From Snodgrassella alvi wkB2 (GTDB lineage: Bacteria > Pseudomonadota > Gammaproteobacteria > Burkholderiales > Neisseriaceae), in NCBI RefSeq assembly GCF_000600005.1, contig NZ_CP007446.1:2072894-2136893 (forward strand): DNA of 64,000 bases, in the 5' to 3' direction. Positions 15,481-62,396 of the stretch are shown here, piece by piece (position 1 is the first letter of the stretch; every line of letters starts with the position of its first letter). The notes under the pieces were generated by a model. It searched no databases and was not told the DNA's origin. It was given only the letters and a program-made list of their open reading frames with translations. The translations under genes were made by a program, and so were the position numbers.

Positions 15481-15508
15481 CTTCAACGCTAAATATTAAA
15501 TTAAAACT

Positions 15509-15526: not shown

Positions 15527-15545
15527 TTTTTATTGGAGAATTAAA

Positions 15546-16226: not shown

Positions 16227-16228
16227 CT

Positions 16229-16247
16229 AGCCAGCTAACCGCTGGCT
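16229..16247 (+). terminator. Intercistronic hairpin 10
   Basis: AGCCAGC-TAACC-GCTGGCT with TTTT, 21 bases before the methyltransferase ATG. Confidence 0.6.
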
Positions 16248-16267
16248 TTTCATTTAGAGAGATTAAT

Positions 16268-17161: not shown

Positions 17162-17183
17162 CATCTGTATCAAGGAGTAAACA

Positions 17184-17639: not shown

Positions 17640-17644
17640 CGGCT
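17627..17644 (+). terminator. Intercistronic hairpin 12
   Basis: AGTCGCT-GAAT-AGCGGCT across the stop codon, then T6 and a TGGAG ribosome binding site. Confidence 0.55.
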
Positions 17645-17662
17645 TTTTTAATGGAGATTATT

Positions 17663-18133: not shown

Positions 18134-18149
18134 CCGCTTAAAAGCGGCT
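18132..18149 (+). terminator. Intercistronic hairpin 13
   Basis: AGCCGCTT-AA-AAGCGGCT overlapping the stop codon, with T5: a good terminator. Confidence 0.6.
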
Positions 18150-18179
18150 TTTTAATTAAGCATTATTAATGAACACGTC

Positions 18180-18193
18180 CCAGCAATAGCTGG
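18180..18193 (+). terminator. Intercistronic hairpin 14
   Basis: CCAGC-AATA-GCTGG with T6, directly before the ribosome binding site of the excisionase-like gene. Confidence 0.55.
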
Positions 18194-18215
18194 TTTTTTA
18201 TTAGCAGGTGACAAA

Positions 18216-18485
18216 ATGCAAACTACACAAAATGATATAAGTGATTTTTATACTACCCTTTTAAACAAGCTAGACGCGCTCATTAATGCCCAGAATGATA
18301 ATAGCAATTTATGGAACGCAGAGAGATGCGCACAATTTTTTTCCTGTTCAGTTGGTCACTTCAAAAGCCGCATTGCCTGTAAACCTGATTTTCCGCCACC
18401 TGTTAAAGTTAATAAAACCGCCTACTCTCTATGGATTCCTGCAGAGGTAAAGGCTTATGCTAAGCGTAAGCAATTAATCAAGTAA
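18216..18485 (+). CDS. AlpA/excisionase-like DNA-binding protein
   Basis: An 89-residue protein. The C-terminal 50 residues form a MerR/AlpA-like helix-turn-helix: LWNAERCAQFFSCSVGHFKS, then PDFPPPVKVNKTAYSLWIPA with the characteristic wing, and EVKAYAKRK. It overlaps the 3' end of the convergent integrase gene by 12 bp, the usual place for a recombination directionality factor. Confidence 0.7.
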   Translation: MQTTQNDISDFYTTLLNKLDALINAQNDNSNLWNAERCAQFFSCSVGHFKSRIACKPDFPPPVKVNKTAYSLWIPAEVKAYAKRKQLIK

Positions 18486-19463: not shown

Positions 19464-19534
19464 AGAATTAAAGAAACTGAATAAAGAGGGCGTACCATAA
19501 CCCAAAACAGTGACGTTTGAAAGTTGCTATATAG

Positions 19535-46000: not shown

Positions 46001-49000
46001 GGCATCTTTACCGGCTATGATTTTTCCGCCGTTACTGTTATCAACAGCCAGACGGCTTTCGCCTTCACTGTTAAGCAACACATCTCCGCCACTGCCGAAT
46101 TCTCCGCCCTGATTATTCAGACTATTACCAATCTGTGCCTTTAACTGCTGATTTGTCCTGATAGCTCCGGCTGCATTGTTTACACTGTCTGCTGTCAGAT
46201 CAATACTGTCTGCATCTATGCTGCCATTATTGCTGTTATCCAGTGTCGATGCTTGAATTACTGCCTCTTTGCCCGACTGAATCACACCATTTCCACTGTT
46301 GTTTATACTTACTGATGCCTTAAGATGCAGATTTTCACTGCTTATTATCCCTTTATTATTATTTTTAATACTTTCCGTATTCAGATAGGCATCTTTACCG
46401 GCTATGATTTTTCCGCCGTTACTGTTATCAACAGCCAGATGACTTTCGCCTTCACTGTTGAGCAACACATCTCCGCCACTGCCGAATTCTCCGCCCTGAT
46501 TATTCAGACTATTGCTAATCTGTGCCTTTAACTGCTGATTTGTCCGGATAGCTCCGGCTGCATTGTTTACACTATCTGCTGTCAGATCAATACTGTCTGC
46601 ATCTATGCTGCCATTATTACTGTTATCCAGTGTCGATGCTTGAATTACAGCCTCTTTGCCCGACTGAATCACACCATTTGTACTGTTGTTTAAACTTACC
46701 GATGCCTTAAGATGCAGATTTTCACTGCTTATTATCCCTTTATTATTATTTTTAATACTTTCCGTATTCAGATAGGCATCTTTACCGGCTATGATTTTTC
46801 CGCCGTTACTGTTATCAACAGTCAAATGGCTTTCGCCTTCACTGTTGAGCAACACATCTCCGCCACTACCAAATTCTCCGCCCTGATTATTCAGGCTGCT
46901 GCCAATCTGTGCCTTTAACTGGCGGTTTGTCCGGATAGCTCCGGCTGCATTATTTACACTATCCGCTATCAAATCAATTCTGTCTGCATCTATACTTCCA
47001 TTACTGCTGTTATCCAGTGCCGATGCATGAATAACTGCATGTTTGCCGGCCTGAATCTTGCCATTTGCGCTGTTATTCAATACCAGATTGCCTGATCCGT
47101 CAGCATTTAGCAGTAATTCTTCATTACTTACAATATTTCCTCCTGTGTTATCCAGCTTTTCATCAATCTGCGCCGTTAGCTGTTTACCAGCCTGAATAAT
47201 ACCCCCTGCCGTATTTTCTGCGCGTGCTGCCTTCAGATCCAGATTCTCACTGCTTATTATCCCTTTATTATTATTTTTAATACTTTCTGTATTCAGATAG
47301 GCATATTTACCTGCTATGATTTTTCCGCCGTCACTGTTATCAACAGCCAGATGACTTTCACCTTCACTGTTAAGCAACACATCTCCGCCACTGCCGAATT
47401 CTCCGCCCTGATTATTCAGGCTGTTGCCAATCTGTACCTTTAACTGCTGATTTGCCCGTATCGCTCCGGCAGCATTGTTTACACTGTTTGCTGTCAGATC
47501 AATACTGTCTGCATCTATACTGCCATTATTGCTGTTATCCAGTGTCGTCGTATGAATAACTGCATGTTTGCCGGCCTGAATCTTGCCGTTTTCACTGTTA
47601 TTCAATACCAGATTACTTTGTCCGTCAGCATTCAGCAGTAATTCTTCATTACTTACAATATTTCCTCCTGTGTTATCCAGCTTTTCTTCAATCTGCGCCT
47701 TTAACTGTTTACCAGCCTGAATAACACCCCCTGCTGTATTCTCTGCGCGTGCTGCCTTCAGATCCAGATTTTCACTGCTTATTATCCCTTTATTATTTTT
47801 AATACTTTCTGTATTCAGATAGGCATTTTTATTCGCTATGATTTTTCCGCCGTCACTGTTATCAACAATCAGACGGCCTTCGCCTTCACTGTTGAGTAAT
47901 ATATCTTCGCCACTGCCGAATTCTCCGCCCTGATTATTCAGGCTGTTGCCAATCTGTGCCTTTAACTGACGGTTTGTCCGGATAGCACCTTTACTGTTAT
48001 CAACAATATTGGCTTTTAATATCAGACTATTACTATCAATACTGCCCTGCCGGTTATTCAGGTTATTCGTACTCAGTTTAAGAGATGCACCGGACTGAAT
48101 TTTTCCGTCCAGACTGTTATTTATATCTTTACTTTGTATGCTTAGCTGTTCCTGAGCCGCAATCAGACCATTATCACTGTTATCCAGCTGGGCACTGTCT
48201 ATATTAATATCCTTTACCGACTGTAATTTACCTTTTCTGTTATCCAGTTTGCCACTTTTTGCCGATAATAATTCTGTTGTAGTAATTTCACCCTGATGAT
48301 TATCAATGCTATTGGTATTAATTAATGCCTGCCGGGCACTGAGCTTACCTTGATAATTATCAAATATTTCACCACTTACCGTTAATTTATTCAGATTCAG
48401 ACTGCCATGATTATTCAGACCAGTCTTCGAGGTTAAATCAATACCGCCATTGGCAATAATCTGACCATTATCATTAATTATTCCCTCACTACTAATAATT
48501 TTTCCGGTTTCAAATTGTGTTTTATGGGTATTAACAGCAGAGACTGTTTGTCCGCTACCAGCGGCTGTAGTAGGAGGAGAAGCAGGTATTGCCGTTTCCG
48601 GTTTATGCTCCGGGTCAGACGGAGCAGGCTTATCCGGCTCAGGGGCATAACCAATCAGGCCATTATTACTATTATCCAGCTTATTCAGATCCAGCGTTAA
48701 ACCCTGAGTACCGGTCTGAATAATCTTCCCGTTCTGATTATGAATATTATCTGCAATAATATCTATCCGACCGGCATTAATTTCTCCCTGATTATGCAGT
48801 TTTTGCTGCCGGATATTGATTTCATCCGCAGTAGTCAGTAAACCACTGTTTTCTAACTGCTCACTATGAACCAGCATTTTCCCCTGACTTGAAACTGTTC
48901 CACTATTCGTTACTCTGTCAGCATTGAGGGAAACACTGGCAATATCAGCACCAGAAGATTTCTGATCAGAAACGACAATACTACCGCTATTGCTCAGGTA

Positions 49001-50274: not shown

Positions 50275-52041
50275 CTAAAGTGAATAATTCAGATTAAATC
50301 CGAATGTAGTTTTGTCTGTGCGGAAATGCTGCGGTTTATAAATCGGCTTTCCCATAAATACGTCGTAATACCAGTTCCCGCCAGCCTTTACCTGACCTTT
50401 AAAACCCACTACTGTACCCGCCAGTGTCTTTCCTAACTGCATTTCACTTGTTCTTCCCGTTATATGCCCTACGTCTATCCCTGCATATACCTGATGACTC
50501 GGTAAATACTGCCAGTTCAGATTGTTATTCCAGTACCAGCCCTGCTCTCCCATCAAAGTAAGCTCTCCGTCAAATCCCCGCACAGTGTAGCGCCCGCCTA
50601 TTGATACCTGATCCTGAGTAATTAACGGGGTTTTATTCCACTGCCCGTGAAACGAGGTGTCATAGCTAAAGTTATATTTTCCTACCCTGAACGGCTTCAT
50701 CAGTGAAGCATCCAGTGTGATTATCTCCATCCGCGAGGTGCCTTCACCGAATTCTTCTTCTGCCGCCCGTAAACTGTGGTCTGCACCGGTTCCGCGCTTA
50801 TAACCTGCACTCAGATTAAGTATGGCATTTCCTAAATATTCCTGATGATTCAGCCCTATAGCCCAGCCTGCCGTATGTCTTCTCTGTACTTCGATTTCAG
50901 CATCGTCTATATAGTTATGTGATTTACGCCGCCATATTCTGGCACTTACATCAATTTTACGGTGACTGTTACGATATATCATTCGGGTTATCCCCAAATC
51001 TGTATTTTCACTGCTGCCGTTATAATCATAATTCTGGTTATAACCGGCTATAGCCTGATGGTAGCGGTAATAATTCTGGTTAAAAGCTATCAGCCAGTTT
51101 CCTACCGGTACTGAATAATGAAGGGAATAGCCGTGTGTACCACTACCGGTACGATTACCATCAATATCTACTGTACTGTCTTTACTACCCAGATCATGGT
51201 TATAGTTCACATAAAACAGATCACTTAGACCTAACGGATTATCAACAGATAAAGTTACACCGCCCTGATAACGTCCGGTAGCATGACTGCCTGAGTCATC
51301 TGCATTAAAGCTGATACGTACTGGTACTTTACGCTGCGACCATGAAACAACCACATCACTTTCGTTCGGTGCTTCAGCCGGTACTATCTGGATATCCGCC
51401 TCTACTGTCGGCACGCGTTTCAGGTTTTCCAGTCCTTGTTCTAAATCCCGCAGATTCAATATGTCACCAGATCTGGCAGGAAATTCATTCTGAATACGAC
51501 GAATACGGTTTACATGTGTCTGATCAGCATTATCAAGGTTATAACGAATTTCATGAATTCGTCCCGGAATAACTGTCAATACCAGCTCACCAGTACTTAA
51601 ATCCTGCGGGCTGGCCAGAATGCGTGTAGTAGTATATCCCCTGTCTATTACTGCATTCTGCGCCAGTGTCATAATATAATTAATACCATTGCTACCCAGA
51701 CACAATCCCGGCTTGAATTTACTCAGATAAATAGCTTTATCTAATGCAAATTGAAACCGCTGTGCCTGATCACCATTTAACTTGATGCTTCTGATGGCAA
51801 AACATGGTTTTTCATCCTGAGGTAAACCGTTAACCGTACCTTCAATTTGCGGAGGCTGTAATCGCACATTGACTTCAGGCTGCATTTTTTCCTGAAATTG
51901 TTTCAGCCTTTGCTGTTCGCGAATAATCTGCTGCTGTTCAATATCTGCCGGATTAGCCGGACCTGACGATGGTGCAGCATACGTCTGATATATCACCCCG
52001 TTCAGTAGACTTAAAAATAATAGGTTTTTACTGATGTTCAT
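50275..52041 (-). CDS. CdiB/FhaC-type TpsB outer-membrane transporter
   Basis: A 588-residue Omp85-family TpsB protein from the ATG at 52041. Signal peptide (NLLFLSLLNGVIYQTYAAPS), POTRA region (FAIRSIKLNGDQAQRF, LNLRDLEQGLENLKR), then a 16-strand barrel including VRGFDGELTLMGEQGWYW, the conserved L6 loop with R-G-F. It ends in LNYSL. It exports the FhaB-like protein encoded just downstream. Promoter presumably in the AT-rich 52042-52900. Confidence 0.93.
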   Translation of the reverse strand: MNISKNLLFLSLLNGVIYQTYAAPSSGPANPADIEQQQIIREQQRLKQFQEKMQPEVNVRLQPPQIEGTVNGLPQDEKPCFAIRSIKLNGDQAQRFQFALDKAIYLSKFKPGLCLGSNGINYIMTLAQNAVIDRGYTTTRILASPQDLSTGELVLTVIPGRIHEIRYNLDNADQTHVNRIRRIQNEFPARSGDILNLRDLEQGLENLKRVPTVEADIQIVPAEAPNESDVVVSWSQRKVPVRISFNADDSGSHATGRYQGGVTLSVDNPLGLSDLFYVNYNHDLGSKDSTVDIDGNRTGSGTHGYSLHYSVPVGNWLIAFNQNYYRYHQAIAGYNQNYDYNGSSENTDLGITRMIYRNSHRKIDVSARIWRRKSHNYIDDAEIEVQRRHTAGWAIGLNHQEYLGNAILNLSAGYKRGTGADHSLRAAEEEFGEGTSRMEIITLDASLMKPFRVGKYNFSYDTSFHGQWNKTPLITQDQVSIGGRYTVRGFDGELTLMGEQGWYWNNNLNWQYLPSHQVYAGIDVGHITGRTSEMQLGKTLAGTVVGFKGQVKAGGNWYYDVFMGKPIYKPQHFRTDKTTFGFNLNYSL

Positions 52042-52920
52042 CACATTATCTACAAATATTTGTTTTAATTAATAATATAATACATAAATTAACTCTACAA
52101 ATTTTTTAACTAATTTATTTGTAATAAAAATATTTTAATAAGAAAATTTTATTTAGATATTTATCTGAAAAACAATTTATATAAATTAAATTTTTATATA
52201 TATTTCAATATATTAATTGAATAATTATTCTATATGCAATAAATCATCTATGATAATTTTCTTCTCCGCCCTTCTGATCAGATATTCAATAATTAAAATT
52301 AAATTATTGTTTCAAATAAGATTAAATATAAATTTAGTTAATGGACAAGTTTTGTTGTAAATTTGATATAAATCTCCAAAATTAAATATATTTAATCTAA
52401 TTTAAAGTAAATATAACGTACTCACTTTAATAAATACATTAGATAATCTCTCACTTTTCCGTTAGAAATTCTCAAATTTTTCTCATGTTTTAATTAATAT
52501 GACTAATCATAATATTAATCTTAAATGTTTCAATTTATAACTTAGCCAATAATACTAATTTCATAAAATAGATAAATTAGATTTATCTAGTGAGTAGTGT
52601 TTTTCTTAGTCATAATTTCACTTAAATATAATTTGTTTTTCATAATTAGATGTTTACACTAAAAATACCAATTAATAGAAAATACCGATTCTATAATTAT
52701 TTTTTATCTGTACTATATTTATCGATTCAATTAAAGCACGAGAATTAATCCCAGGTATTTATTCATTGATGAACAAATTACCCTGTTAGTTGAACAACGA
52801 CATGGTAGTAATTAAAATAAAAGCCTTATTGATGTTTCAACAAGGCTTTAAATTTTATTTATCTGATAATGGGGTTTGGTTAACTAAACAAGCTCCATCT
52901 CAGTTTTTAATAATTAAATA
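52042..52920. other. Very AT-rich upstream region of the TPS operon
   Basis: About 780 bases of extreme A+T with no open frame, followed by a terminator at 52821-52850. It should hold the promoter of cdiB-fhaB. Its composition suggests H-NS-type silencing, but that is only inferred. Confidence 0.4.
52821..52850 (-). terminator. Bidirectional terminator
   Basis: AAGCCTTATTGA-TGTT-TCAACAAGGCTT, one mismatch, with T-runs on both sides; it follows the first immunity gene on the minus strand. Confidence 0.65.
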
Positions 52921-52923
52921 ACT

Positions 52924-53361
52924 TTATTCAGGTTCAGTCGTATCTGCTTTATATTGTGCTGACTCTTCTTTCGCTGATTCGAGCCATGCTGAAAAATTTT
53001 CTAAATAATATTGTTTACCCCTAACCGGATCTTCACCACTATAACTATAGCCATAATCATGAAAATAAACTTTTGGATCCCCACTTTTATCACTTCCATC
53101 AAAACAGGCTAAAACAACATATCCATCATTAAAAAAACCTGATTCATCACTAGCAATAGCAAAAGGTATTAAAGGTTGATCTCTATATTCAATGAGTAGT
53201 GCTCCATAATAACTTAAAGATTTTCCGATATCTTTGCATAAAAAATCCCATGGTTCTAAATCAATAATGTTATTAGATTTTACTGTGTCAATATAACTTT
53301 GAGGAAAAACAAAACCATCAGGAAGTATTGGGGTATTATATAAAAATATATTAGACATCAT
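52924..53361 (-). CDS. SMI1/KNR4-like immunity protein
   Basis: A 145-residue protein: LPDGFVFPQSYIDTVKSNN, DLEPWDFLCKD, ESGFFNDGYVVLACFDGSD, PKVYFHDYGYS and YYLENFSAWLESAKEE. This is the SUKH/SMI1-KNR4 pattern of toxin-immunity proteins. Its ATG overlaps the expected stop of the toxin frame upstream (ATGA), a classic toxin-immunity pair. The toxin, however, carries an internal stop. Confidence 0.8.
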   Translation of the reverse strand: MMSNIFLYNTPILPDGFVFPQSYIDTVKSNNIIDLEPWDFLCKDIGKSLSYYGALLIEYRDQPLIPFAIASDESGFFNDGYVVLACFDGSDKSGDPKVYFHDYGYSYSGEDPVRGKQYYLENFSAWLESAKEESAQYKADTTEPE

Positions 53362-53789
53362 TTTTTACCTTGTATTTTTGGAGATTGATTCGAGCCATTT
53401 GGATTTTGTTTTCCAAAGCCTCAAGATTGTTTGTTTATGTGCCCTTTAATTGCTTCTCCCCATGTATTATATTTTTCCCGACCTCGAAGCTCTTGAATCT
53501 CCGGAGTTAATTTTTCATTAAAATCATGAACTTTTGCTTTAACATTAGTACCTGCTTCTCTTGCAGCAAGAATTCGAGTGTTATCCATATTTGTTAATTT
53601 GCCATCTGGCATTTTTATGACATCAACAGAATCGCCTTTCCAACCATCTTTTTTCATTCTAGAGACAAGATCATCATAAGTGTATTTTAAAGTAGTTCCT
53701 CGTTCAGTTTTGTTATAAGAAACCGTATTCTGTGAAAATCTGATTTCATCAGGATTTATTACGGTCGTTCCTTTTCCAGCATAAGTTAA
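53358..53789 (-). pseudogene. Orphan CdiA-CT toxin cassette with premature stop
   Basis: Open from a TAA at 53790 but without an ATG until codon 45. It begins with the junction linker (YAGKGTTVINPDEIRFSQN), then MKKDGWKGDSVDVIKMPDGK and NTRILAAREAGTNVKAKVHD, a known polymorphic-toxin C-terminus. A TGA at 53421 interrupts the frame; beyond it GFGKQNPNGSNQSPKIQGKK continues in frame to a stop at 53358. The activity of this toxin class is not stated here. Confidence 0.7.
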
Positions 53790-53825
53790 TTATTGAACTT
53801 GCGATGCAGGTCTAAAAAGCAATAA

Positions 53826-53860
53826 AAGCTCCCCGCTGGTTAAGGCGGGGGAGCTTTTTA
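53826..53860. terminator. Bidirectional terminator in the cassette array
   Basis: AAGCTCCCCGC-TGGTTAA-GCGGGGGAGCTT with T5 on the plus side; it overlaps the 3' end of the colicin D-type immunity gene. Confidence 0.7.
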
Positions 53861-54124
53861 ATTTAGTTTTTTCAACTCTTGCTCAATTTGCTCAATAAGT
53901 TGTTTATCATTTAATTCATATTCTTCTTTATCAGAATCTGGATTATAAAGATCGGCTAGACAAAAAATAGTTGATAAACATTCGCTAACACTGTCTTCAT
54001 CTTTGAGAAGTAAACCGTTATCTCGCTCTATTCGATAGAGCTCAATGTAAGCCTCAGCAAAAACTTGAGCTGTTATTCTTCCATTAACAAACGATTTAGC
54101 AAATTCTAATGCTATAAGGCTCAT
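53858..54124 (-). CDS. Colicin D-type immunity protein
   Basis: An 88-residue acidic helical protein: LIALEFAKSFVNGRITAQVF, AEAYIELYRIERDN, and CLSTIFCLADLYNPDSDKEE. This is the pattern of colicin D immunity proteins, which block the tRNA nuclease by mimicking its substrate. The ATG overlaps the stop of the toxin upstream. Confidence 0.8.
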   Translation of the reverse strand: MSLIALEFAKSFVNGRITAQVFAEAYIELYRIERDNGLLLKDEDSVSECLSTIFCLADLYNPDSDKEEYELNDKQLIEQIEQELKKLN

Positions 54125-54543
54125 CGTAATACTCCATTTTTCATATAATTATCATACTGTGCGGTTCCTGGCGTAAGCTTAAATCCTGTAACAAAATTAC
54201 CAGAGCTATCAAGAACAACTGCATTATTAGTACTTGAGTTAAAAAATACTTTTGAGTCTTTTACAAAGCCATAAGTACCTTGGGGTTTGGTTGCCGAGTC
54301 TCCCATATGATTTTTGATTGCAGTTTCATATTGACCAAGAGTTTCCGGGTTTTTCTTTGTTGTTGTTATTCCAAAATCAGCCGCATGCTTAAACTTCTTA
54401 TCTAGTTGCTTTTGCGTTATTCCCGTTAATTCACCGGCAAGAGAATTTGCACTCGTTCTCTTTCCAGCATTCCCCAAGCCTTTCTCATTTACTACATGCT
54501 CATCAAAAATTACTTTTTTTATTCGCTTGTTGAATGCTGTTAG
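54121..54543 (-). CDS. Orphan CdiA-CT toxin, colicin D-like nuclease
   Basis: Reads from a stop at 54546. Linker FDEHVVNEKGLGNAGKRTSA, then a ~105-residue toxin: KQLDKKFKHAADFGITTTKK, ETAIKNHMGDSATKPQGTYG, SKVFFNSSTNNAVVLDSSG, and TGFKLTPGTAQYDNYMKNG. This matches the colicin D-like tRNA-Arg nuclease family. There is no ATG before the toxin part, only TTG, so the cassette is probably silent unless recombined behind cdiA. Confidence 0.75.
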   Translation of the reverse strand, partial: LTAFNKRIKKVIFDEHVVNEKGLGNAGKRTSANSLAGELTGITQKQLDKKFKHAADFGITTTKKNPETLGQYETAIKNHMGDSATKPQGTYGFVKDSKVFFNSSTNNAVVLDSSGNFVTGFKLTPGTAQYDNYMKNGVLR

Positions 54544-54626
54544 TTATCAAACTTGAGATAAAAGTATAGACATCAAAGTAAGATCCTAACAGGATTCAGA
54601 TGAGGACTTTACTATTACCTCTAAAT

Positions 54627-54959
54627 TTAAAAATAAAAAAATAGACCTGTTTTATATTTTATTGCATTATCAACTTGAGTTAATAATTGAATCAACGCTT
54701 CGCTATTATTTGATACTATTGAATTTTGAATAATACTTTTAGCCTTAATAAGCTTATCAAGATCGATTATCTTTTCATCTTCATAATCATCAATATTTAT
54801 ATCTAATTCATTATTAAGTTGATTAATAACATTACTCTCTAAGAGATTTTTATAATTATCTTCATCAAGAATTAATTCAATCAAATCACCATCCACACAA
54901 TTATCTAAATCTAGGCGTTCCATTGCACTTTTATTTACTGGAACGGATATATTTTTCAT
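54627..54959 (-). CDS. Probable immunity protein
   Basis: A 110-residue, very acidic protein (LDNCVDGDLIELILDEDN, INIDDYEDEKIIDLDKLI) starting 1 bp after the toxin-frame stop. The acidity and position are those of an immunity protein for the cassette at 54961-55359. Family not named with certainty. Confidence 0.65.
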   Translation of the reverse strand: MKNISVPVNKSAMERLDLDNCVDGDLIELILDEDNYKNLLESNVINQLNNELDINIDDYEDEKIIDLDKLIKAKSIIQNSIVSNNSEALIQLLTQVDNAIKYKTGLFFYF

Positions 54960-54960
54960 A

Positions 54961-55359
54961 CTATTTATTCCTTTTTATATTAAAATGAGTTGCCTCATTA
55001 TATTCACCTTGACTTCGGCCAGCTTCTTTTCCATTCTCTAATAATTTGTTGTTAGGAATATTACCATTCAAATCCAAATAAGCTCTTTTTCCCGAAATAT
55101 TAGGGTTATAAATTCGGAAGTAGTTTCCAGACAAATCCTCAACCACCTGTATACCTGTTGTTGGATTAGTATAAATTCTTTTTCCTTTTTCAGTTGTAGT
55201 TATTATTGGATTTGAGCCTGCAAACTCATTAATAGCCTTATCAAGACTTGCTGTAGCCCAATTACTTGAATATTGTTCTGCTCTAGCCGCACCGCCAGTT
55301 AGTTTTTCAGTATTTGTAACACCAGTCCCCTTTCCAGCATTCGATTTCCTGAAAACTGG
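54961..55359 (-). CDS. Orphan CdiA-CT toxin cassette (YFRIY...THF family)
   Basis: Open from a TAA at 55360. Linker VFRKSNAGKGTG, helical RAEQYSSNWATASLDKAINE, then NPTTGIQVVEDLSGNYFRIY, KRAYLDLNGNIPNN, NGKEAGRSQGEYNEATHF. This tail (FRIY, YLDLNG, GR, THF) recurs in polymorphic-toxin C-termini. Activity is not assigned. No ATG occurs in the frame; the first usable start is a GTG at 55146, inside the toxin. Probably silent. Confidence 0.65.
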   Translation of the reverse strand, partial: PVFRKSNAGKGTGVTNTEKLTGGAARAEQYSSNWATASLDKAINEFAGSNPIITTTEKGKRIYTNPTTGIQVVEDLSGNYFRIYNPNISGKRAYLDLNGNIPNNKLLENGKEAGRSQGEYNEATHFNIKRNK

Positions 55360-55369
55360 TTAATCTGAC

Positions 55370-55660
55370 CTATGCGGTGATACTCTGACCACTTTGTTGA
55401 TGGTTGATGTATTGAGACAAACATATCTTATGATGGAAATTATAACTACTGTCACCCATACGTATTATTTTGTCTCCTGCTACGGCTAACTCTCTGCCCA
55501 CATGAGTAAGACCATCGTCAGAAGTAGATATATCGCCCTTCGTCTGAATGGGTTTGTTCAAGAGGTTTAATGTAGAGCAAATTACTAACTGATTCAATAT
55601 GGGATTTTTAATTAAAAAAATCATACTTAGCAAAAAGATGACGGATATCATTAATAACAT
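55370..55660 (-). CDS. Small hypothetical membrane-anchored protein
   Basis: A 96-residue frame with an N-terminal membrane segment (LLMISVIFLLSMIFL) and an unrecognised C-terminus. It immediately precedes a toxin cassette on the same strand. It may be a remnant; I am not confident it is translated. Confidence 0.3.
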   Translation of the reverse strand: MLLMISVIFLLSMIFLIKNPILNQLVICSTLNLLNKPIQTKGDISTSDDGLTHVGRELAVAGDKIIRMGDSSYNFHHKICLSQYINHQQSGQSITA

Positions 55661-55759
55661 ATTATTTTCTTATATCTTCCTCAGTAACCCAGACAAGCTA
55701 CACACCCAGTTTTGAAACTGAAACTCATGTTTATTTCTTGTACATTCTAGGAAAATATT

Positions 55760-55784
55760 AGATCCCAGTAATGTAAAGGGATCT
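55760..55784 (-). terminator. Hairpin after BECR-cassette immunity gene
   Basis: AGATCCC-11 nt-GGGATCT stem just past the immunity stop at 55790; weak T-tract. Confidence 0.4.
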
Positions 55785-55789
55785 AGTTG

Positions 55790-56080
55790 CTAGGATTGAT
55801 ATATTACGTCGTAATTATTACCTAATTCTATTTGTAATTTTTCTTGTAAACATTTCCCTTTTTCTTTAAAGGCTATTTCTTCATTAATAGTTTTAAATCC
55901 AGATTCTAACGGGTTATCTGAATTCAACGTTTTATCATAGTCATCTGACCACTTATTTAACTCATTTTTGAGAGAATCACTGATTAGTAAGGAATCAGGA
56001 TCAATATTTCCAACTTCATTATCCGAATCAATCCACAATGGATAACATTCATAATCAGCCATTAATTTTATTTTCTTCAT
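55790..56080 (-). CDS. Immunity protein of the BECR-like toxin cassette
   Basis: A 96-residue acidic protein starting 1 base after the toxin stop (MKKIKLMADYECYPLWIDSD, ISDSLKNELNKWSDDYDKTL, NPLESGFKTI). This small family regularly follows the LQHIVERH-type toxin in CDI-like loci, and so is its likely immunity partner. Confidence 0.75.
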   Translation of the reverse strand: MKKIKLMADYECYPLWIDSDNEVGNIDPDSLLISDSLKNELNKWSDDYDKTLNSDNPLESGFKTINEEIAFKEKGKCLQEKLQIELGNNYDVIYQS

Positions 56081-57793
56081 TTACTTACTCCCCGCAGGAT
56101 TTGCTCCAACAATAAAACCATTACTTCCAGTTGTAACAGCTATTCTTTGTTTTTGTCCATTAATCGTAATTTCATAAATTGGTCGTCCTGTTCCTTTTCC
56201 TTGATAACCAATAATCTTTCCTTTGGATACAGTGTCTATAACTACATTAGGTATTTGTGATTCTGAAACCCCTATTTTTGCAAAATCACTGGCATGACGT
56301 TCTACAATATGTTGGAGCCCTGCCGATGAATTACCTTTCTCAAGAAAAACTATTTTACCATCAGCTAATTTTTCAACTTTCAAAATATTTTCAGGTGAGA
56401 ATTTAACGCCATTCTTAGACATTTCTTCCAGATATTGTTGATTTATCGTCCCTTTTCCAGCTTTTGCTTTAGAACCCTGCTTTTGCATCATTACAGAATA
56501 TCTATTTTTTATCAAACCTATTTCGTCATTGGTTAGTCTCCTTCCTTTTTTCATGCTCAGTGCACGTATAACTGTTTCAACACTAACTCCTAAGTTGAGT
56601 AATGTATCAACTTGCTGTTGCATTATACTAACTGACCCTATGTAGCTCCCAGCAATTTGATATTGGAATACTCTTATGGCTATCTGTTCGTCAGAAGCTC
56701 CAGAGCGTTTCATTTTTTTGACTAGATTTAACATTGTAATTTGGTTGAAATCTGCATTGCCGATTACGCTCGCTGGTATCCATTCATTTGCATTTAAATC
56801 AAATATGCGTGAACCAAACCTACGCTGACTTTCTCCAGCCCCCCTCATCATTTTATTAGCATAGCTTGTCAATAATATTTTGGATTCTTCTTCTGTTATT
56901 TGTCCTGTCATATACAAATTCAATATGATTTTATTTGCTTCATCAGAGGCCTTTAAATATTCTTTTTCAACCTGAATCCTGCACTGATCTGTTTTGCATG
57001 CATCATATTTTCTTTGATAATCATCCGCACTTTGTACACCTGCTTTTTTCAGTTTTTCATTTAATATTTTTTCCTGAGTGTTAAGTTTACTTTCCCCCTT
57101 ACTGTTACGAAGTGCATTATTATCAACCGCCGTATGCCCGGCCTGATTCCCCTGTGCCACATCAGCCATGCTGCCGCCTACTGCCGCTCCTGTTGCTGCT
57201 CCAGCCAACCCTATGATTGATGAAACCGTGGCTTTTTCATCTGCAGTTAAATCTTTTGATTCCTTGCCATACAGCCATTTCGATACTACCGGCGCCAGAG
57301 CTTCTGTTCCTGCCGCAGCCAGTCCGCCAGCCAGTGCATTATTTCCTCCTGCTGCCGCTACTGCTGCTCCTACTACTGCGTGCGCCACCAGATGCGCAGT
57401 GCTGCCTTCTGCATCTTTTCCTTTAAAGTACTGCCCTATCTGATATGAAACTATCGGGCTGGCTGTGGCCGCCACTATCCCTCCTATGCTGTTAGTCGGG
57501 GCGGACAGGCCTGCTCCTATCACATTTAACAGTAATCCGCCTGCATTCCACTGCGACAGTTCTTTTTCATATTTTTCACGTTCTTCCGGACTCAGTGCTG
57601 TATTTTTCAGTTTTTCTTTGAGGGCATCTTTTTTACTGTTTATTATGGCAGAGGCTGTCTGCATGTTATCGCTGAATTCCTGACTGATTTCACGCTGTAA
57701 ATCCAGCTCTTTCTGTACCTTATCTTTATCAAAGTTATTATGCAGATATCCGGCCTTATCAGCATAATCTTCGCTGCTGATATCAGTATGGAT
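56081..57793 (-). CDS. Displaced cdiA 3' end: pretoxin plus BECR-like nuclease
   Basis: An open frame of about 570 codons without a start at its upstream end; the first ATG is at 57664. It begins with IHTDISSEDYADKAGYL, homologous to the intact fhaB at 41045-40945. Next is a pretoxin with alanine/glycine helices (VVGAAVAAAGGNNALAGGLA) and a VENN-like AVDNNALRN, then a cysteine pair YDACKTDQCR, then the linker KAGKGT at 56447. The toxin (~115 residues) has GLQHIVERHASDFAKIGV, VSKGKIIGYQGKGTGRPIYE and NGFIVGANP, a likely BECR-fold RNase. It reads as a former cdiA tip replaced by recombination. Confidence 0.8.
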   Translation of the reverse strand: MHTDISSEDYADKAGYLHNNFDKDKVQKELDLQREISQEFSDNMQTASAIINSKKDALKEKLKNTALSPEEREKYEKELSQWNAGGLLLNVIGAGLSAPTNSIGGIVAATASPIVSYQIGQYFKGKDAEGSTAHLVAHAVVGAAVAAAGGNNALAGGLAAAGTEALAPVVSKWLYGKESKDLTADEKATVSSIIGLAGAATGAAVGGSMADVAQGNQAGHTAVDNNALRNSKGESKLNTQEKILNEKLKKAGVQSADDYQRKYDACKTDQCRIQVEKEYLKASDEANKIILNLYMTGQITEEESKILLTSYANKMMRGAGESQRRFGSRIFDLNANEWIPASVIGNADFNQITMLNLVKKMKRSGASDEQIAIRVFQYQIAGSYIGSVSIMQQQVDTLLNLGVSVETVIRALSMKKGRRLTNDEIGLIKNRYSVMMQKQGSKAKAGKGTINQQYLEEMSKNGVKFSPENILKVEKLADGKIVFLEKGNSSAGLQHIVERHASDFAKIGVSESQIPNVVIDTVSKGKIIGYQGKGTGRPIYEITINGQKQRIAVTTGSNGFIVGANPAGSK

Positions 57794-57868
57794 GCTAGGT
57801 TTTAAAATCCCATACTTTAATCAATACGATTAATTACATTATTCAATAAATATTTATTTTTTTGAGTA

Positions 57869-58090
57869 TTACTGATGCTTTTGATTTTGATAAATACATG
57901 CATAACTAGGATACTGCCATATAACAGCATATCTTTGAAGCGGTATTTCAGTTACTGTTGGATCTTTTTCATAATCATAATAATCATCCAAATTAGAAGT
58001 ACTAATCATCTCTTCTCCGCGACAGTTATGTTCAAAACCTAGTTTTGCACTATTTTTATCAATAGTAGTAGCAACTTTTCCTATAACCAA
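57869..58090 (-). CDS. Hypothetical fragment
   Basis: A 73-codon frame opening with TTG; possibly starts at an internal ATG (MISTSNLDDYYDYEKD). Ends PSYACIYQNQKHQ. It lies between two cassettes and may be a truncated immunity gene. Not recognised. Confidence 0.3.
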   Translation of the reverse strand: MVIGKVATTIDKNSAKLGFEHNCRGEEMISTSNLDDYYDYEKDPTVTEIPLQRYAVIWQYPSYACIYQNQKHQ

Positions 58091-58140
58091 ATAACTTTAT
58101 ACCATTTGTTATATACACCTAGTCTGGTCAGACCTAGCCC

Positions 58141-58177
58141 TCCAATTCAACTGACCATGAATGGTCGTTGAATTGGA
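58141..58177. terminator. Long inverted repeat between cassettes
   Basis: TCCAATTCAACTGACCAT pairs with ATGGTCGTTGAATTGGA with one bulge: a ~17-bp stem and 2-base loop. Terminator or recombination-associated palindrome. Confidence 0.45.
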
Positions 58178-58308
58178 GAAGCTCAGATTTTATGCTGGTA
58201 TGTTCATAACCATAACAATAGAGTAGGGTAAATTATTTACTCAACTTGCTATATAAGTCTAAAAGATAATAATTAGAATCTCTAATAGTTAGGTAGAAAT
58301 TATTCTTA

Positions 58309-58575
58309 TTATGATATTTTAGTCATTATATTTTTGATAATAGGTTCAACAGATTGTTCTAACTTTTCACTATCTATCGTATAACGATTTAATTCAATTT
58401 GATTTTCTGCATCAAATAGCAATTCTCTTAACCATTTTTCTTCTAATGCCAATATCTGATGCTCAGCTTCATAAATACTAGATTGTATTTCATCCAAACT
58501 AATTTTTTTATTTAAATAAGAATCACATTTTTTTTTAAGATTATTAATAACATCAGGATATATCCAATTCATCAT
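58309..58575 (-). CDS. Probable immunity protein
   Basis: An 88-residue acidic helical protein (LKKKCDSYLNKKISLDEIQS, YEAEHQILALEEKWLREL). Its ATG overlaps the toxin stop upstream by 4 bases (ATGA). Immunity role inferred from pairing. Confidence 0.65.
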   Translation of the reverse strand: MMNWIYPDVINNLKKKCDSYLNKKISLDEIQSSIYEAEHQILALEEKWLRELLFDAENQIELNRYTIDSEKLEQSVEPIIKNIMTKIS

Positions 58576-58787
58576 TTTTCACTCCTTCTTAGAATGGTCA
58601 CTACAACTTTACTATTCCTTTCGGTAACAACACCTACATCACCACTCCAATATACAGTCCTTTTTACACCATTAACCATTGAACTGGTTTTTGTTCCATT
58701 TTGTATAGTGTGCTCTACAATATTAGGAGAAATGTTACGACCAGCTCCAACTGTACCGGCAGGGAGCCCTAACTCTGGTAGTTGCAT
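58572..58787 (-). CDS. Orphan CdiA-CT toxin fragment (HTIQNG type)
   Basis: A 71-residue frame from an ATG: MQLPELGLPAGTVGAGRNIS, VEHTIQNGTKTSSMVNGVKR, VYWSGDVGVVTERNSKVVVT. The tail resembles small RNase toxins of the BECR/DUF4258-like kind. Upstream, the linker sequence (58902-58915) is followed by stops, so the N-terminal half has decayed. Paired with the immunity gene at 58309. Confidence 0.6.
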   Translation of the reverse strand: MQLPELGLPAGTVGAGRNISPNIVEHTIQNGTKTSSMVNGVKRTVYWSGDVGVVTERNSKVVVTILRRSEK

Positions 58788-58901
58788 CCTATCAACTGCA
58801 TGTTGTGAATATAATCTGTTTCCAATCGACGAATATTACTTACCGACAACAGTCTTTTTGGGGTAGTTCTGCTAAGAATTCCATTCCAGAGAATTACCAT
58901 T

Positions 58902-58980
58902 CATCCCTTTCCTGCTTTACCACCGCTCAGCCATTCATCATAGATGCGCAACAGTGGTTATTGATTATCAGGATTGAGAA
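58902..58980 (+). pseudogene. SymE-like fragment 1
   Basis: The plus strand reads FTTAQPFIIDAQQWLLIIRI then stops, resembling the C-terminal core of SymE-family toxins. It overlaps, on the opposite strand, the linker of the toxin remnant at 58572. Degenerate. Confidence 0.5.
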
Positions 58981-59004
58981 GCCTATCTAAAATAAAGTAA
59001 TATA

Positions 59005-59053
59005 GATCTGTCCTTGATAATATCAACCCTATGATTAAATCAAAGACAGATCA
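59005..59053 (-). terminator. Hairpin after immunity gene
   Basis: GATCTGTCCTTGA pairs with TCAAAGACAGATC (one G-U) around a 23-base loop just past the stop at 59059. Confidence 0.45.
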
Positions 59054-59058
59054 ATTAA

Positions 59059-59409
59059 TCATCTTATTAATGTTGAAAATTCAGTAGAAATAAAAGGTTG
59101 TAATCTTATATCAACCTTTGTTCTTGTATCCTCTAGTACAACTTCGGTCGTTAGGTATTCACCATCTACATCTTTTTCTATCTTAAAGTATTCCACACCC
59201 TCCATTAGATTGTGCGCTATTCTTTTCTGTTTATACTCTATAATTGTTTGTATCCAACCTCCAGTTGCACTAAACGAAAAAATCAAAGACATTTCATTTT
59301 GATCAGTATATTTGTATGCAAAGTGTAAATCCTCTGTATTCTGAAAAATAGGTTCTCCCTCAAAAAAAGCTAACAAATTTATTTCATCTGGAAAAGATTG
59401 AATAAACAT
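59059..59409 (-). CDS. Probable immunity protein
   Basis: A 116-residue acidic protein (FPDEINLLAFFEGEPIFQNT, EMSLIFSFSATGGWIQTIIE, DGEYLTTEVVLEDTRTKVDI). It overlaps the 3' end of the toxin gene by about 30 bp. Its partner and position indicate immunity; family name unknown to me. Confidence 0.65.
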   Translation of the reverse strand: MFIQSFPDEINLLAFFEGEPIFQNTEDLHFAYKYTDQNEMSLIFSFSATGGWIQTIIEYKQKRIAHNLMEGVEYFKIEKDVDGEYLTTEVVLEDTRTKVDIRLQPFISTEFSTLIR

Positions 59410-59789
59410 TTATTTTTTCCTTCTTTTGGAATTGTTGTTACAAATCTACGCGAACCATCTGGCATAATCTCAAATGACGTTTGTAATATAGTACCTTTTC
59501 CTGATAGACCCATTAAGAAATATTCTCTAACTTTAAAACTCTGAGAACCTCTTTTGTCATTATTAATAACATTACCTTTTGTATTTACTACTTTATTAAA
59601 GTGTTCAGTTAAAATAGCTGTACCTGATTCATTAGTCGGTAGCCCAAGCCGTCTCATCATTTGGGATAATTGAGTTGAGCGAGCAGTATTATGTTCTCCG
59701 CTATTTACTTTGCCATAAAGATAATCAAATTTTTTTGGATCTATTTCAAGCTTCGTCCCTTTTCTAGCATTAGATACTAGAAGGCGCAC
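59379..59789 (-). CDS. Orphan CdiA-CT toxin cassette (GEHNTARSTQ type)
   Basis: A 136-residue frame opening with GTG: LLVSNARKGTKLEID is the junction linker (Arg replaces Gly), followed by LYGKVNSGEHNTARSTQLSQ, RRLGLPTNESGTAILTEHFN and MPDGSRRFVTTIPKEGKN. This family recurs at polymorphic-toxin C-termini. The last residues (KCLFNLFQMK) may be out of frame, since they read into the immunity gene. Activity not assigned. Confidence 0.65.
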   Translation of the reverse strand: MRLLVSNARKGTKLEIDPKKFDYLYGKVNSGEHNTARSTQLSQMMRRLGLPTNESGTAILTEHFNKVVNTKGNVINNDKRGSQSFKVREYFLMGLSGKGTILQTSFEIMPDGSRRFVTTIPKEGKNKCLFNLFQMK

Positions 59790-60024
59790 AAGACCAAGCT
59801 ACCAAGTCAAGATTAAAAGACCATGAGTTTTTAAACCCGTTTCAAAAGATTGAGAAGCTACCAGAAGAAAACAAACCGTGATTAAGAGATTTTTAGATGC
59901 CTTTTAACCAAGAATCAGATTAAATTACTGACTAAATAAGAATAATAAAACAATAAGTAAGCAGCAATAATAGGCGGCAACCTGCTACCACTGCTAACCA
60001 AAACTAACTTCACAGGAGTTAACT

Positions 60025-60290
60025 ATGGCTAAGGCACTGCAACCCACCGAACGATTTTACACCATTGGTTAACACCCCAAGCCATAGGACCCAACCCCAG
60101 ACCGCAACTACCTATTAAAGGCTGCTGGCTAGAAGCCTTTGGCTTTACCACCGGTCAGCCAGTCATCATCGATGCGCAACATGGGCTGTTTATTATCAGG
60201 ATTGAGGGGCTTGAGCTAAGAGGTAAAACAATATCCTCGCGAGTTAAGGCGGGGATTGCTATACAACAGGCTAGGATCTTATATTTAACT
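60025..60290 (+). pseudogene. SymE-like gene 2, frameshifted
   Basis: An ATG at 60025 with AGGAGT upstream starts MAKALQPTERFYTIG, then TAA; a shifted frame continues PRPQLPIKGCWLEAFGFTTG, QPVIIDAQHGLFIIRIEGLE. The KGCWLEAFGFTTGQPV core is that of SymE-family toxins. Broken by at least one frameshift and a stop. Confidence 0.6.
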
Positions 60291-60653
60291 GTGATTGATA
60301 TATAGAGCAACAGGTTTTGCCGGTACGGTAATTTCCCATCCCATGATGAGTAATATCGCCATAGCCATTTCTCTCATATTTTTCCACTCAGCACATTGAC
60401 AAAGCGCATCGTTGTTCCAGTATTGGATGTTAGGTGCTCCACTTATAGATAACATATAATCATCTAACTGTTTAATTGCCAATTTTTGCTCAGACGTGAA
60501 AGAAGATGCGACCAAAGGATCATTTAATTCATCTAAAGCCATTTCCCACTCAACAGCCAGCTCGTCCGCAACGTTCACAAAATCAGGAAATAAACTTTTC
60601 TGTACTTCACAAGGCTGCGCTATCGCCTGAGTTATCCATTTAATCTTATTCAT
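60285..60653 (-). CDS. Probable immunity protein
   Basis: A 122-residue protein: WITQAIAQPCEVQKSLFPDF, VNVADELAVEWEMALDELND, LCQCAEWKNMREMAMAIL. It occurs as a small conserved protein next to toxin tips in related loci and here follows a toxin remnant by about 20 bp. Immunity role is inferred. Confidence 0.6.
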   Translation of the reverse strand: MNKIKWITQAIAQPCEVQKSLFPDFVNVADELAVEWEMALDELNDPLVASSFTSEQKLAIKQLDDYMLSISGAPNIQYWNNDALCQCAEWKNMREMAMAILLIMGWEITVPAKPVALYINHS

Positions 60654-60672
60654 TTTTTATTCCTTTGGTTTA

Positions 60673-60900
60673 TTAATAATTGTCGCTTTCTCTCCCGCAC
60701 TTGGCTTGTTCCAATCGACGCATATTGCTTACCGTAAATAGTCTTTTTGGGGTAGTTTTGCCAAAAATTCCATTCAGAGAATTACCATTCATTCCCTTTC
60801 CTGCTTTACCACCAGTCAGCCAGTCATCATTGATGTACAGCCGAGGCTGTTGATTATCAGGATTGAGGGGCTGAGCTAAGAGGTAAAACAAAATCCCCAC
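60673..60900 (-). pseudogene. Toxin-cassette remnant with SymE-like sequence on the opposite strand
   Basis: The minus strand reads QPLNPDNQQPRLYINDDWL, then GGKAGKGMNG, then TTPKRLFTVSNMRRLEQAKC and ends. Only the linker and a short tail of a toxin remain. The plus strand of 60809-60877 reads FTTSQPVIIDVQPRLLIIRI (SymE-like fragment 3), so it is unclear which strand was originally coding. Confidence 0.5.
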
Positions 60901-60916
60901 GGGTTAGGTGGGGATT
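60886..60916 (-). terminator. Terminator after the DUF4926 gene
   Basis: AATCCCCAC-GGGTTAG-GTGGGGATT 9-bp perfect stem; minus-strand tail TTTTGTTTT. Confidence 0.7.
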
Positions 60917-60919
60917 GCT

Positions 60920-61117
60920 TTAGCTTACCTTGGATAATTTATCTGGTGATAAGGCTAGTATCTCTATTGTTCTACCGTTCTCATCACAGAACTCGACTTC
61001 ATATGATTCATCGGGTTTAGTATAAACATCTATAATTGCACCTATCATTCCTGATTTCAGATTATACTCAGGAATATCTTCAGTTAAACTTACTGTATCA
61101 AAAAGGGAATATTTCAT
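60920..61117 (-). CDS. DUF4926 immunity protein
   Basis: A 65-residue beta-rich protein: LFDTVSLTEDIPEYNLKSGM, IGAIIDVYTKPDESYEVEFC, DENGRTIEILALSPDKL. This is the DUF4926 pattern, repeatedly found directly behind DUF6883 toxins. It lies 7 bp after the DUF6883 frame here. Confidence 0.85.
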   Translation of the reverse strand: MKYSLFDTVSLTEDIPEYNLKSGMIGAIIDVYTKPDESYEVEFCDENGRTIEILALSPDKLSKVS

Positions 61118-61124
61118 AATATCT

Positions 61125-62396
61125 TCACTTTACATAGAGTGTTGTTAATCTAGGTGTTGATGATCCAGGATCATATATCCAACCAGTTCGAACAGTTGCT
61201 GTTTTCCCATTCGGTCCAGTAATTGGCATATCAATAGTAATTCTTTGACCATGATTATCTGCTTTACCTAGAATGGCTGTATTTGTTTTTGCTCCCGATT
61301 GTATTTTTGATATTAGATCATTTGCGTTTGATTGGTTATATCCTAAAGCTGACTCAAAAACTTTTGCTTTGTTTCCCCCTACGGGATGCTCGGTATTTAA
61401 TGCATAAGAAGTAACTTTATTCGGATCAATTACTGCTTTATCTGCATTTGCTAGCTTCCCAGAGTTTCCTGTTTTAATTACAGCCTCTGCATGGGTGTAA
61501 TTGTTCCAATTCGCTGTTGGTCCTGAAAGTTTATCTTTAGAGGTTATTGTAGCAACATCATCTACAGCACTCGTCCCCTTTCCGGCTTTTGCTTTAGAAC
61601 CCTGCTTTTGCATCATTACAGAATATCTATTTTTTATCAAACCTATTTCGTCATTGGTTAGTCTCCTTCCTTTTTTCATGCTCAGTGCACGTATAACTGT
61701 TTCAACACTAACTCCTGAGTTGAGTAATGTATCAACTTACTGTTGCATTATATTAACTGATCCTTTGTAGCTCCCATCAATTTCATATTGAAATACCCTT
61801 AAGGCTATCTGTTCGTCAGAAGCTCCAGAGCGTTTCATTTTTTTGACTAGATTTAACATTGTAATTTGGTTGAAATCTGCATTGCCAATTACGCTCGCTG
61901 GTATCCATTCATTTGCATTTAAATCAAATATGCGTGAACCAAACCTACGCTGACTTTCTCCAGCCCCCCTCATCATTTTATTAGCATAGCTTGTCAATAA
62001 TATTTTGGATTCTTCTTCTGTTATTTGTCCTGTCATATACAAATTCAATATGATTTTATTTGCTTCATCAGAGGCCTTTAAATATTCTTTTTCAACCTGA
62101 ATCCTGCACTGATCTGTTTTGCATGCATCATATTTTCTTTGATAATCATCCGCACTTTGTACACCTGCTTTTTTCAGTTTTTCATTTAATATTTTTTCCT
62201 GAGTGTTAAGTTTACTTTCCCCCTTACTGTTACGAAGCGCATTATTATCAACCGCCGTATGCCCGGCCTGATTCCCCTGTGCTACATCAGCCATACTGCC
62301 GCCCACTGCTCTTAATATTGCATGTGCTACAAGATGCGCAGTACTGTTTTCTGTAATTTTATCTTTAAAAGATTGACCAATTTCATATAAAGCCAC
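61125..62396 (-). pseudogene. Second pretoxin copy with DUF6883 toxin, interrupted by a stop
   Basis: The frame begins near 62396 (GTG; ALYEIGQSFKDKITENSTAH) with a pretoxin that has lost ~70 residues relative to 57793-56081, then runs with near-identity through AVDNNALRN and YDACKTDQCR to a TAA at 61737 where the other copy has CAA. After it, the same frame continues (MKKGRRLTNDEIGLIKNRYS), the linker KAGKGTS, and a DUF6883 toxin: TSYALNTEHPVGGNKAKVFE, LGYNQSNANDLISKIQSG, and RTGWIYDPGSSTPRLTTLYV. Confidence 0.8.

Follow-up and report, generated by a model that had tools for sequence, protein, structure and literature searches.

How can the same toxin be joined, in frame, to carrier proteins that are otherwise unrelated? 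This question is raised by a window of 64,000 nucleotides (positions 2,072,894-2,136,893 of a genome that comprises 2,527,978 bases in one contig) from Snodgrassella alvi wkB2, a betaproteobacterial symbiont of bees. On the minus strand, an array of orphan toxin-immunity cassettes of the contact-dependent growth inhibition (CDI) type extends from approximately 62.4 to 52.9 kb and precedes cdiB and a full-length cdiA. An initial annotation had noted eight copies of a junction of roughly 15 bp in this array and had proposed that toxin domains are exchanged there. We conclude, with a probability of roughly 0.7, that this junction sequence (hereafter J) is a microhomology seam and tags the 5′ boundary of the CdiA toxin-immunity cassettes found in Snodgrassella and Gilliamella.

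Junction copies and their partners

In the wider set of junctions compared below, the conserved unit between carrier and toxin is 18 bp long (AATGCTGGAAARGGRACK; peptide N-A-G-K-G-T) and reaches three bases (AAT, Asn) further upstream than first described. A pattern scan of the window that allowed up to three mismatches returned nine matches, compared with a chance mean of 3.24, and none of 100 shuffled sequences reached nine. Two of these matches (32671 and 40246, three mismatches each) are located elsewhere in the window, and seven fall at the noted sites. All junction copies are read on the minus strand. Exact AGKGT is encoded at junctions A (53766..53783, TAT GCT GGA AAA GGA ACG, no mismatch, with an in-frame stop four codons before AGKGT), C (55324..55341, AAT GCT GGA AAG GGG ACT, one mismatch), D (56447..56464, AAA GCT GGA AAA GGG ACG, no mismatch, within a 527-aa CdiA fragment), and H (61572..61589, AAA GCC GGA AAG GGG ACG, one mismatch). 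Variant peptides are found at B (54454..54471, AAT GCT GGA AAG AGA ACG, AGKRT, one mismatch), F (59754..59771, AAT GCT AGA AAA GGG ACG, ARKGT, one mismatch), and G (60790..60807, AAA GCA GGA AAG GGA ATG, AGKGM, two mismatches). The remnant at E (58902..58917) was missed by the scan because one base is missing, and it reads GGKAGKG followed by a stop. Upstream, both E and G are joined to an antisense SymE remnant.

Of the eight copies originally described, seven therefore have zero to two mismatches, whereas 58902 has lost a base and the copy placed at 55323 begins at 55324. Likewise, the peptide given for the junction is exact at four of eight sites and variant or frameshifted at the other four. 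The view that flanks differ while the junction stays applies to seven different carrier/toxin joints, but E and G represent a single joint in two paralogous versions, with 82-88% similarity between their flanks, and D and H have a common upstream carrier (96% over 300 nt) followed by different toxins.

We compared 58 junctions from a genome sample of one per species: seven of the eight in the window (E was omitted for its missing base), 16 from its genus, and 35 of 39 Gilliamella rows. The omitted rows are a duplicate (L302), one that is the same as L333 (L334_589), one that is not a toxin (L335), and a second motif 96 bp after the first (L337_2946). Second and third tandem copies and locus L340 are outside this count. 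The 58 junctions represent 20 carrier clusters, 27 downstream clusters, and 44 combinations of the two; clustering was by single linkage, which chained several Gilliamella carriers into one cluster and lowers the count. Eleven of the 27 downstream clusters occur with at least two carrier clusters, and 10 of the 20 carrier clusters have at least two downstream partners. Homology begins at the motif, or at its second tandem copy, in nine of the 10 multi-carrier clusters that are not chained.

Among 269 similar pairs of junctions, 163 are in register, including 116 that share a carrier, 40 that share a cassette, and five that are alike on both sides. Inspection by eye showed that most of the 106 out-of-register pairs consist of 198-bp J-spacer-J modules that align with one another. 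Homology is lost between +9 and +35 in 111 of the 116 carrier-shared pairs and is gained between -18 and +3 in 35 of the 40 cassette-shared pairs. Identity by offset in carrier-shared pairs is 0.65-0.81 before the motif, 0.87 within it, and 0.30-0.36 after it, and in cassette-shared pairs it is 0.29-0.35 up to -4, 0.86 in the motif, and 0.68-0.90 after it. The 1384 pairs without other detected similarity have an identity of 0.82 in the motif and 0.29-0.37 beyond. Carriers without detected similarity hold the same cassettes in frame, and J alone is common to them. The proposal that toxin domains are exchanged at the junction is thus borne out by the clusters, the breakpoints, and the step in identity, which show that cassettes change partners there.

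The clearest single case involves cassette C, which is identical to a sequence of Gilliamella apicola ESL0177 over the 330 bp first compared, starting at the AAT of the junction, with nothing alike upstream. Junction B mirrors C in this comparison, being alike upstream (with a one-base shift) and unlike past the junction; the 300 bp compared before B are 99% identical to Gilliamella locus L301. The shared block (54454..55344, minus strand) comprises the C junction, toxin, immunity gene, next carrier remnant, and B junction, and is 99.44% identical to G. apicola ESL0177 over 891 columns. In both genomes it starts three bases before one junction and ends 17 bases into the next, and the B junction of the window has two substitutions in addition to the one-base shift before it. 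Among the comparisons listed, homology between the genera also starts from the junction for F and L304 (90.1%, 747 bp), for L081 and L328 (94.6%, 1449 bp), and for L076 and L329 (84.9%, 976 bp, ending at the next L076 junction).

A spacer of about 60 residues (NKPLDKT..QHGKGNVEQGG..KANESS.FGEHV) was also seen after different carriers with the junction on both sides, 198 bp apart. These modules lie in L328 (18495/18297 and 1720/1522, minus strand), L330 (13634/13832, plus strand), L332 (3073/2875, minus strand), and L336 (4730/4928, plus strand).

We propose that incoming DNA would recombine at J, an 18-bp island of identity, by short-homology (homology-facilitated) recombination that keeps the reading frame. 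J would thereby join cassettes to carriers that are otherwise unrelated, and the second end would be anchored by longer homology, either in the next carrier or in an antisense symE element, which is often present after the immunity gene. The DNA of J would be handed on through each exchange, because only cassettes that keep J could be rejoined in frame this way. Recombination through J as microhomology would be the simplest mechanism. Identities of 5-23 bp sufficed for meningococcal tpsC cassettes within a homologous region (PMC3848433; statements on this and all other papers cited refer to the accessible parts of their texts). A dedicated recombinase is not needed for the seam reading. The peptide is probably a flexible linker as well, a role that its position makes plausible; a structure model of D (mean predicted local distance difference test score [pLDDT] of 47.7) was uninformative. 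The suggestion that the junction works as both a minimal recombination site and a protein linker accordingly holds in part, in that partner change, DNA conservation, and a block with J at both ends agree with it, but recognition by a dedicated recombinase is improbable.

Several points weigh against the seam reading. In one of the 11 multi-carrier clusters (cluster 9), spacers and toxins are chained together, which may raise the count by one. In cluster 16 (L141/L337), and between junction A of the window and its relatives, homology starts 22-35 nt further in, and two cassette-shared pairs start at -60. The pairs are not independent, the 16 genus junctions were picked by eye, and the motif is common to all junctions by construction, which means that no crossover can be located within the motif by alignment. 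The sequence preceding junction C is not wholly foreign, as it resembles (73.6% over 397 bp) the sequence that precedes a different Gilliamella junction. By tblastn, a symE segment was found no more than 25 bp from J in a single case (L076), and the symE joins of E and G rest on other comparisons. In meningococci, tpsC/tpsA recombination used many identities of 5-23 bp in the homologous 5′ region and no specific site (PMC3848433). Furthermore, exchange is seen here as a sequence outcome, with no event in action, and ordinary homologous recombination in shared carriers could account for the 116 carrier-shared pairs without J.

This last point can be extended to an alternative in which J is a bystander, an old boundary carried along while ordinary homologous recombination acts in the carriers and in elements after the cassettes. 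The sharing of a carrier by 116 of the 163 in-register pairs, some at 95-100% identity, favors this alternative, and the symE segments after many cassettes could supply the other homology arm. However, it does not readily explain why 11 of the 27 downstream clusters stand behind different carrier clusters with homology from J in nine of the 10 unchained cases, why both ends of the C block coincide with J, or why J is joined directly to symE remnants and to itself. We therefore consider it unlikely.

A more far-reaching proposal is that J acts as a community-wide address for cassette exchange between a beta- and a gammaproteobacterium in one gut. Cassettes would insert from J to J into the carrier of any member, possibly by dedicated recombination and with antisense symE as the other end. 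We regard this proposal as speculative and rather improbable.

Recognition of J by a dedicated site-specific recombinase, with integron-like J-to-J insertion of cassettes, is quite improbable. The exact J-to-J block, the J-spacer-J modules, and the tandem J copies fit such recognition, and so does the distribution of the core GCTGGAAAGGG, which is largely confined to the arrays (of 29 matches in six genomes, 23 are in arrays, one is just beside, and five are elsewhere; the reversed control gave one). In addition, S. alvi has been noted to have an integrase-like gene close to Rhs genes (PMC5727410). However, nothing notable in the way of a hairpin was found at the four window junctions tested, and no recombinase scored above the cut-off among the open reading frames scanned in the array and L301, a scan that left most genes of these genomes outside and was not a genome-wide search. 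Matches below threshold were Integrase_1 (E=0.027) in the F frame and Transposase_mut (E=0.096) in the L072 carrier.

Junction DNA beyond the encoded peptide

If selection acted on the peptide alone, the synonymous sites of J should evolve freely. Codon choice at the junctions does not have this character. Local usage is 0.18-0.20 for AAG, 0.22-0.28 for GGA, 0.10-0.11 for GGG, and 0.09-0.15 for ACG. With one junction per combination (44 junctions), GCT is used in 30/40, GGA at the first glycine in 40/43, AAG in 38/44, and ACG in 22/33, while the second glycine is GGG in 22/43 and GGA in 19/43. For 17 junctions that share neither a carrier nor a downstream cluster, the corresponding values are 11/16, 14/16, 15/17, and 9/12, with GGA in 10/17 and GGG in 6/17 at the second glycine. 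Binomial values for these counts treat junctions as independent, which the shared ancestry of the motif itself violates. The information content at the third bases of the first glycine and lysine codons is 1.48 bits and exceeds that at the first base of the threonine codon (1.17), a position at which amino-acid changes occur.

Among the 1384 otherwise dissimilar pairs, codon agreement is 0.79 at the first glycine (0.29 expected), 0.62 at alanine (0.26), 0.50 at threonine (0.27), and 0.44 at the second glycine (0.29). Agreement at lysine is 0.75 (0.69 expected), with the usual lysine preference reversed. The pair GGA-AAG encodes 11/21 and 20/25 junction Gly-Lys pairs, compared with 14/265 and 16/233 other such pairs in long frames. 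The bias persists when the window and genomes G107 and G108 are removed (genus, n=16, GGA 13, AAG 13; Gilliamella, n=25, GGA 21, AAG 24). Thus, the synonymous sites of J are not free, and its DNA is kept beyond the peptide. Codon-level conservation had been suggested as a check on the initial annotation, and its outcome favors the DNA.

These data bear directly on the idea that only the peptide matters, with A-G-K-G-T being a convergent flexible linker and the likeness of the DNA merely following from it. Codons 1, 4, and 5 do vary synonymously, which also counts against our own reading, and intact genes, for example that of the 2906-aa CdiA in L076, have the motif between pretoxin and toxin. 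However, junctions with unrelated flanks are dominated by the rare AAG and ACG codons and by one glycine codon that is nearly fixed, orphan cassettes retain the DNA although stops lie shortly before it, and a relative of toxin C in Moraxella is not preceded by such a peptide. A peptide-only explanation is therefore very improbable. We rejected a role of the purine-rich GGAAAGGGG in ribosome binding for the internal translation of orphan toxins. Such a role is hardly credible given that an in-frame ATG, GTG, or TTG follows within five codons at only 1/58 junctions, fewer than in eight equally sized control windows (2-11 of 57-58), and that starts in any frame (31/58) are inside the control range of 24-42.

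The array, its relatives, and its occurrence in Gilliamella

The array adjoins a locus with the parts of a CDI system, namely a cdiB/TpsB transporter gene (50275..52044, minus strand; ShlB and POTRA domains) and a full-length filamentous-haemagglutinin cdiA/tpsA (40097..50002, minus strand; adhes_NPXG and fil_hemag repeats). The PT-VENN pretoxin domain (PF04829) stands upstream of the toxin in fragments D and H, and the other window cassettes have no carrier. In relatives, this domain is above the cut-off in six of eight scanned carrier stretches, below it in L076 (E=0.0026), and absent from L072. A small immunity gene follows the toxin, and the pairs of B and H are assigned by family and the others by position only. 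The module boundary differs from that expected of CDI systems in that it is not at VENN; homology switches at J, 222 residues past VENN in D. No GKG[TA] junction in the intact cdiA appeared in a peptide-level listing. Of the six peptide-level matches in this genome, four are in the array and the other two are, by eye, adenylate-kinase-like (L029) and GlmU-like (L083), so the copies seen in this genome are all in orphans.

The cassettes, all on the minus strand, carry diverse toxins. Cassette A has a toxin fragment (53421..53765), with relatives after the same junction in G007 (L081) and Gilliamella (L328), and a presumed immunity gene (52924..53361) with a weak SMI1/KNR4-like match below the cut-off. 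Cassette B encodes a Colicin D family toxin (54121..54453, PF11429) and Colicin_immun immunity protein (53858..54124, PF09204). The toxin of C (54961..55323) and its presumed immunity gene (54627..54959) match no Pfam family, and the same toxin follows a Gilliamella carrier in G. apicola ESL0177. CdiA fragment D (56081..57664, PF04829) includes pretoxin, carrier tail, junction, and toxin, and is followed by a presumed immunity gene with no Pfam family (55790..56080). The presumed immunity gene of E (58309..58575) is 88.6% identical to a counterpart in G013 (L072). Relatives of the F toxin (59379..59753) in G013 (L071, 88.9% nt) and Gilliamella wkB171 (L304, 90.1% nt) also begin at this junction, and the presumed immunity gene of F (59059..59409) has no Pfam family. 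Cassette H contains a DUF6883 toxin (61125..61571, PF21814), a presumed DUF4926 immunity gene (60920..61117, PF16277), and a broken carrier fragment in which a Pfam scan found PT-VENN (61737..62396). PADLOC matched none of seven proteins. Far from the array, positions 1-19500 of the window appear by eye to be a prophage-like or integrative region with replication, recombination, and integrase-like open reading frames.

A SymE-like reading frame (60033..60302, plus strand; PF08845, E=6.3e-10) lies on the strand opposite to the cassettes. Sequence upstream of E and G resembles a third copy whose opposite strand encodes a SymE-type protein, so the cassette there is joined at the junction to the remnant of an unrelated gene. 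All 48 symE segments found by tblastn (24 sources, some genes giving more than one segment) are antisense to cassettes, and many lie 600-1000 bp past the junction. The cassette unit may have its 3′ end at these antisense symE segments. SymE-type (PF08845) segments recur after immunity genes in the window (60033-60302 and 58097-58250, plus strand), in L301 (7078-7311, plus strand), and in other Gilliamella loci. A lone symE has been noted within a Proteus CDI cluster (PMC11278526).

Within the genus of the window, the carrier of D is present in seven of 14 genomes, and relatives of cassettes A, E/G, and F occur in other species after other carriers with the same junction. Genome G013 has one carrier with three toxins and also one toxin on two carriers. 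It also contains three junctions in a row (AGKGTN-AGKGTN-AGKGTN) whose synonymous codons differ between copies, and doubled forms occur in two G005 cassettes and one G010 cassette. Tandem junctions with differing synonymous codons were observed at L071 (10258-10294, minus strand), L076 (11719 and 13399, plus strand), and L078 (1442, plus strand); their forms are AGKGTN three times, SAGKGSNAGKST, TGKGSNVGKGT, and EAGKGAGKGAS.

A regular-expression survey of 122 C-terminal-like PT-VENN frames from 83 genomes of the family found AGKG[TAS], among the matches listed, in 8/32 frames of the window's genus and 1/90 outside it (L150), which indicates that the trait does not extend throughout the family. 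Another genus of the family has AATGCGGGAAAGGGAAC once in each of four genomes (L047, L049, L050, and L058), with no open frame of at least 60 codons that contains the junction peptide. A peptide-level DNA pattern applied to 61 genomes was too loose to be useful (51/61 matched, and the reversed control was also frequent), and the two loci read out of the 30 that it yielded (L029 and L030) are both adenylate-kinase-like by eye.

Outside the family, the junction is found in Gilliamella, a gammaproteobacterium that we place in a different class from the window's genus. A species-wide scan for AATGCTGGAAARGGRACK (one genome per species, 84,980 species) matched at least 119 stretches. Among the 80 loci listed, four are from Gilliamella and hold five matches, all in frame at CdiA-type junctions, and none of the remaining 76 is junction-like by eye in the frame printed. 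A pattern left free at every synonymous site gave 30 matches in nine of 35 Gilliamella genomes (five in the reversed control over both strands), and 39 rows with [ATSV]GKG[TASMI] were read from the Gilliamella stretches fetched, all but one of them (L335) toxins by eye. In 394 genomes of Gilliamella's order, a strict motif matched 23 times in nine genomes (zero in the reversed control): 22 times in eight Gilliamella genomes and once in genome G304. Nine of the 23 are from G107 and G108, which were first found by a related codon-specific pattern. By eye, all 23 start toxin-cassette frames, although one ends at a contig end and one (L304) has stops just upstream. In the class sample, only the window's own genome matched (1/369).

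Candidate vehicles and other roles for the motif were also considered and rejected. Seven viral loci have the strict motif, and none is a CdiA junction by eye. The one plasmid candidate, L348 from Moraxella bovis, encodes a distant relative (65.7% identical) of part of toxin C, which ends a haemagglutinin-repeat protein without an AGKGT junction. A Chi or uptake-sequence role does not agree with a core present just one to 10 times per genome in the six genomes searched and located mostly in arrays.

Relation to known systems and significance

Orphan modules, C-terminal displacement, boundary motifs at VENN and in MafB, switch regions in Acinetobacter, and toxin transfer between Snodgrassella and Gilliamella are already in print. 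The closest likeness is to orphan cdiA-CT/cdiI modules, where CT is the C-terminal region (Poole 2011, PMC3150448). These are also toxin-immunity pairs without start codons, with homology from one conserved short coding sequence to the next, through which recombination was proposed. Their seam is VENN at the start of the CT, whereas J is further on, between pretoxin/carrier and toxin, and codon usage served here as the reference for its DNA conservation. Meningococcal tpsC silent cassettes (Arenas 2013, PMC3848433) likewise form arrays beside a two-partner-secretion toxin gene and are exchanged by recombination with the immunity gene carried along, but they lie downstream of tpsA, and the window cassettes are on the 5′ side of cdiB. 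The switch regions of Acinetobacter CdiA (PMC6336857) are variable and 20-40 residues long, in contrast to the six codons and nearly constant DNA of J. MafB transition motifs (VSGDF, VKYDT, and DWVKN; PMC4287609) are short, mark a constant/variable boundary, and have silent cassettes downstream; each is tied to one MafB class, whereas J is common to unrelated carriers and two bacterial classes.

For the same two genera as here, transfer of toxin-immunity genes has been described for Rhs proteins, including some haemagglutinin-type proteins (PMC5727410, PMC8125069). Those accounts concern mainly Rhs cores, and their accessible main texts contain no seam sequence that we saw and no occurrence of "cdia". 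A second, DNA-conserved seam inside the CT region that is common to genera was not found in the accessible parts of the open-access literature searched, and, judged by title, none of the papers listed for the letters AGKGT deals with bacterial toxins.

J points to a probable seam at which polymorphic toxins swap their C terminus in frame despite unrelated carriers. The sequence recurs in tandem, in dead orphans, and across two bacterial classes, and some proteins have it at two successive boundaries. It thus provides a substrate on which domain shuffling within a natural community can be tested, and its 18 bp can serve as a tag for finding toxin cassettes of no known family.

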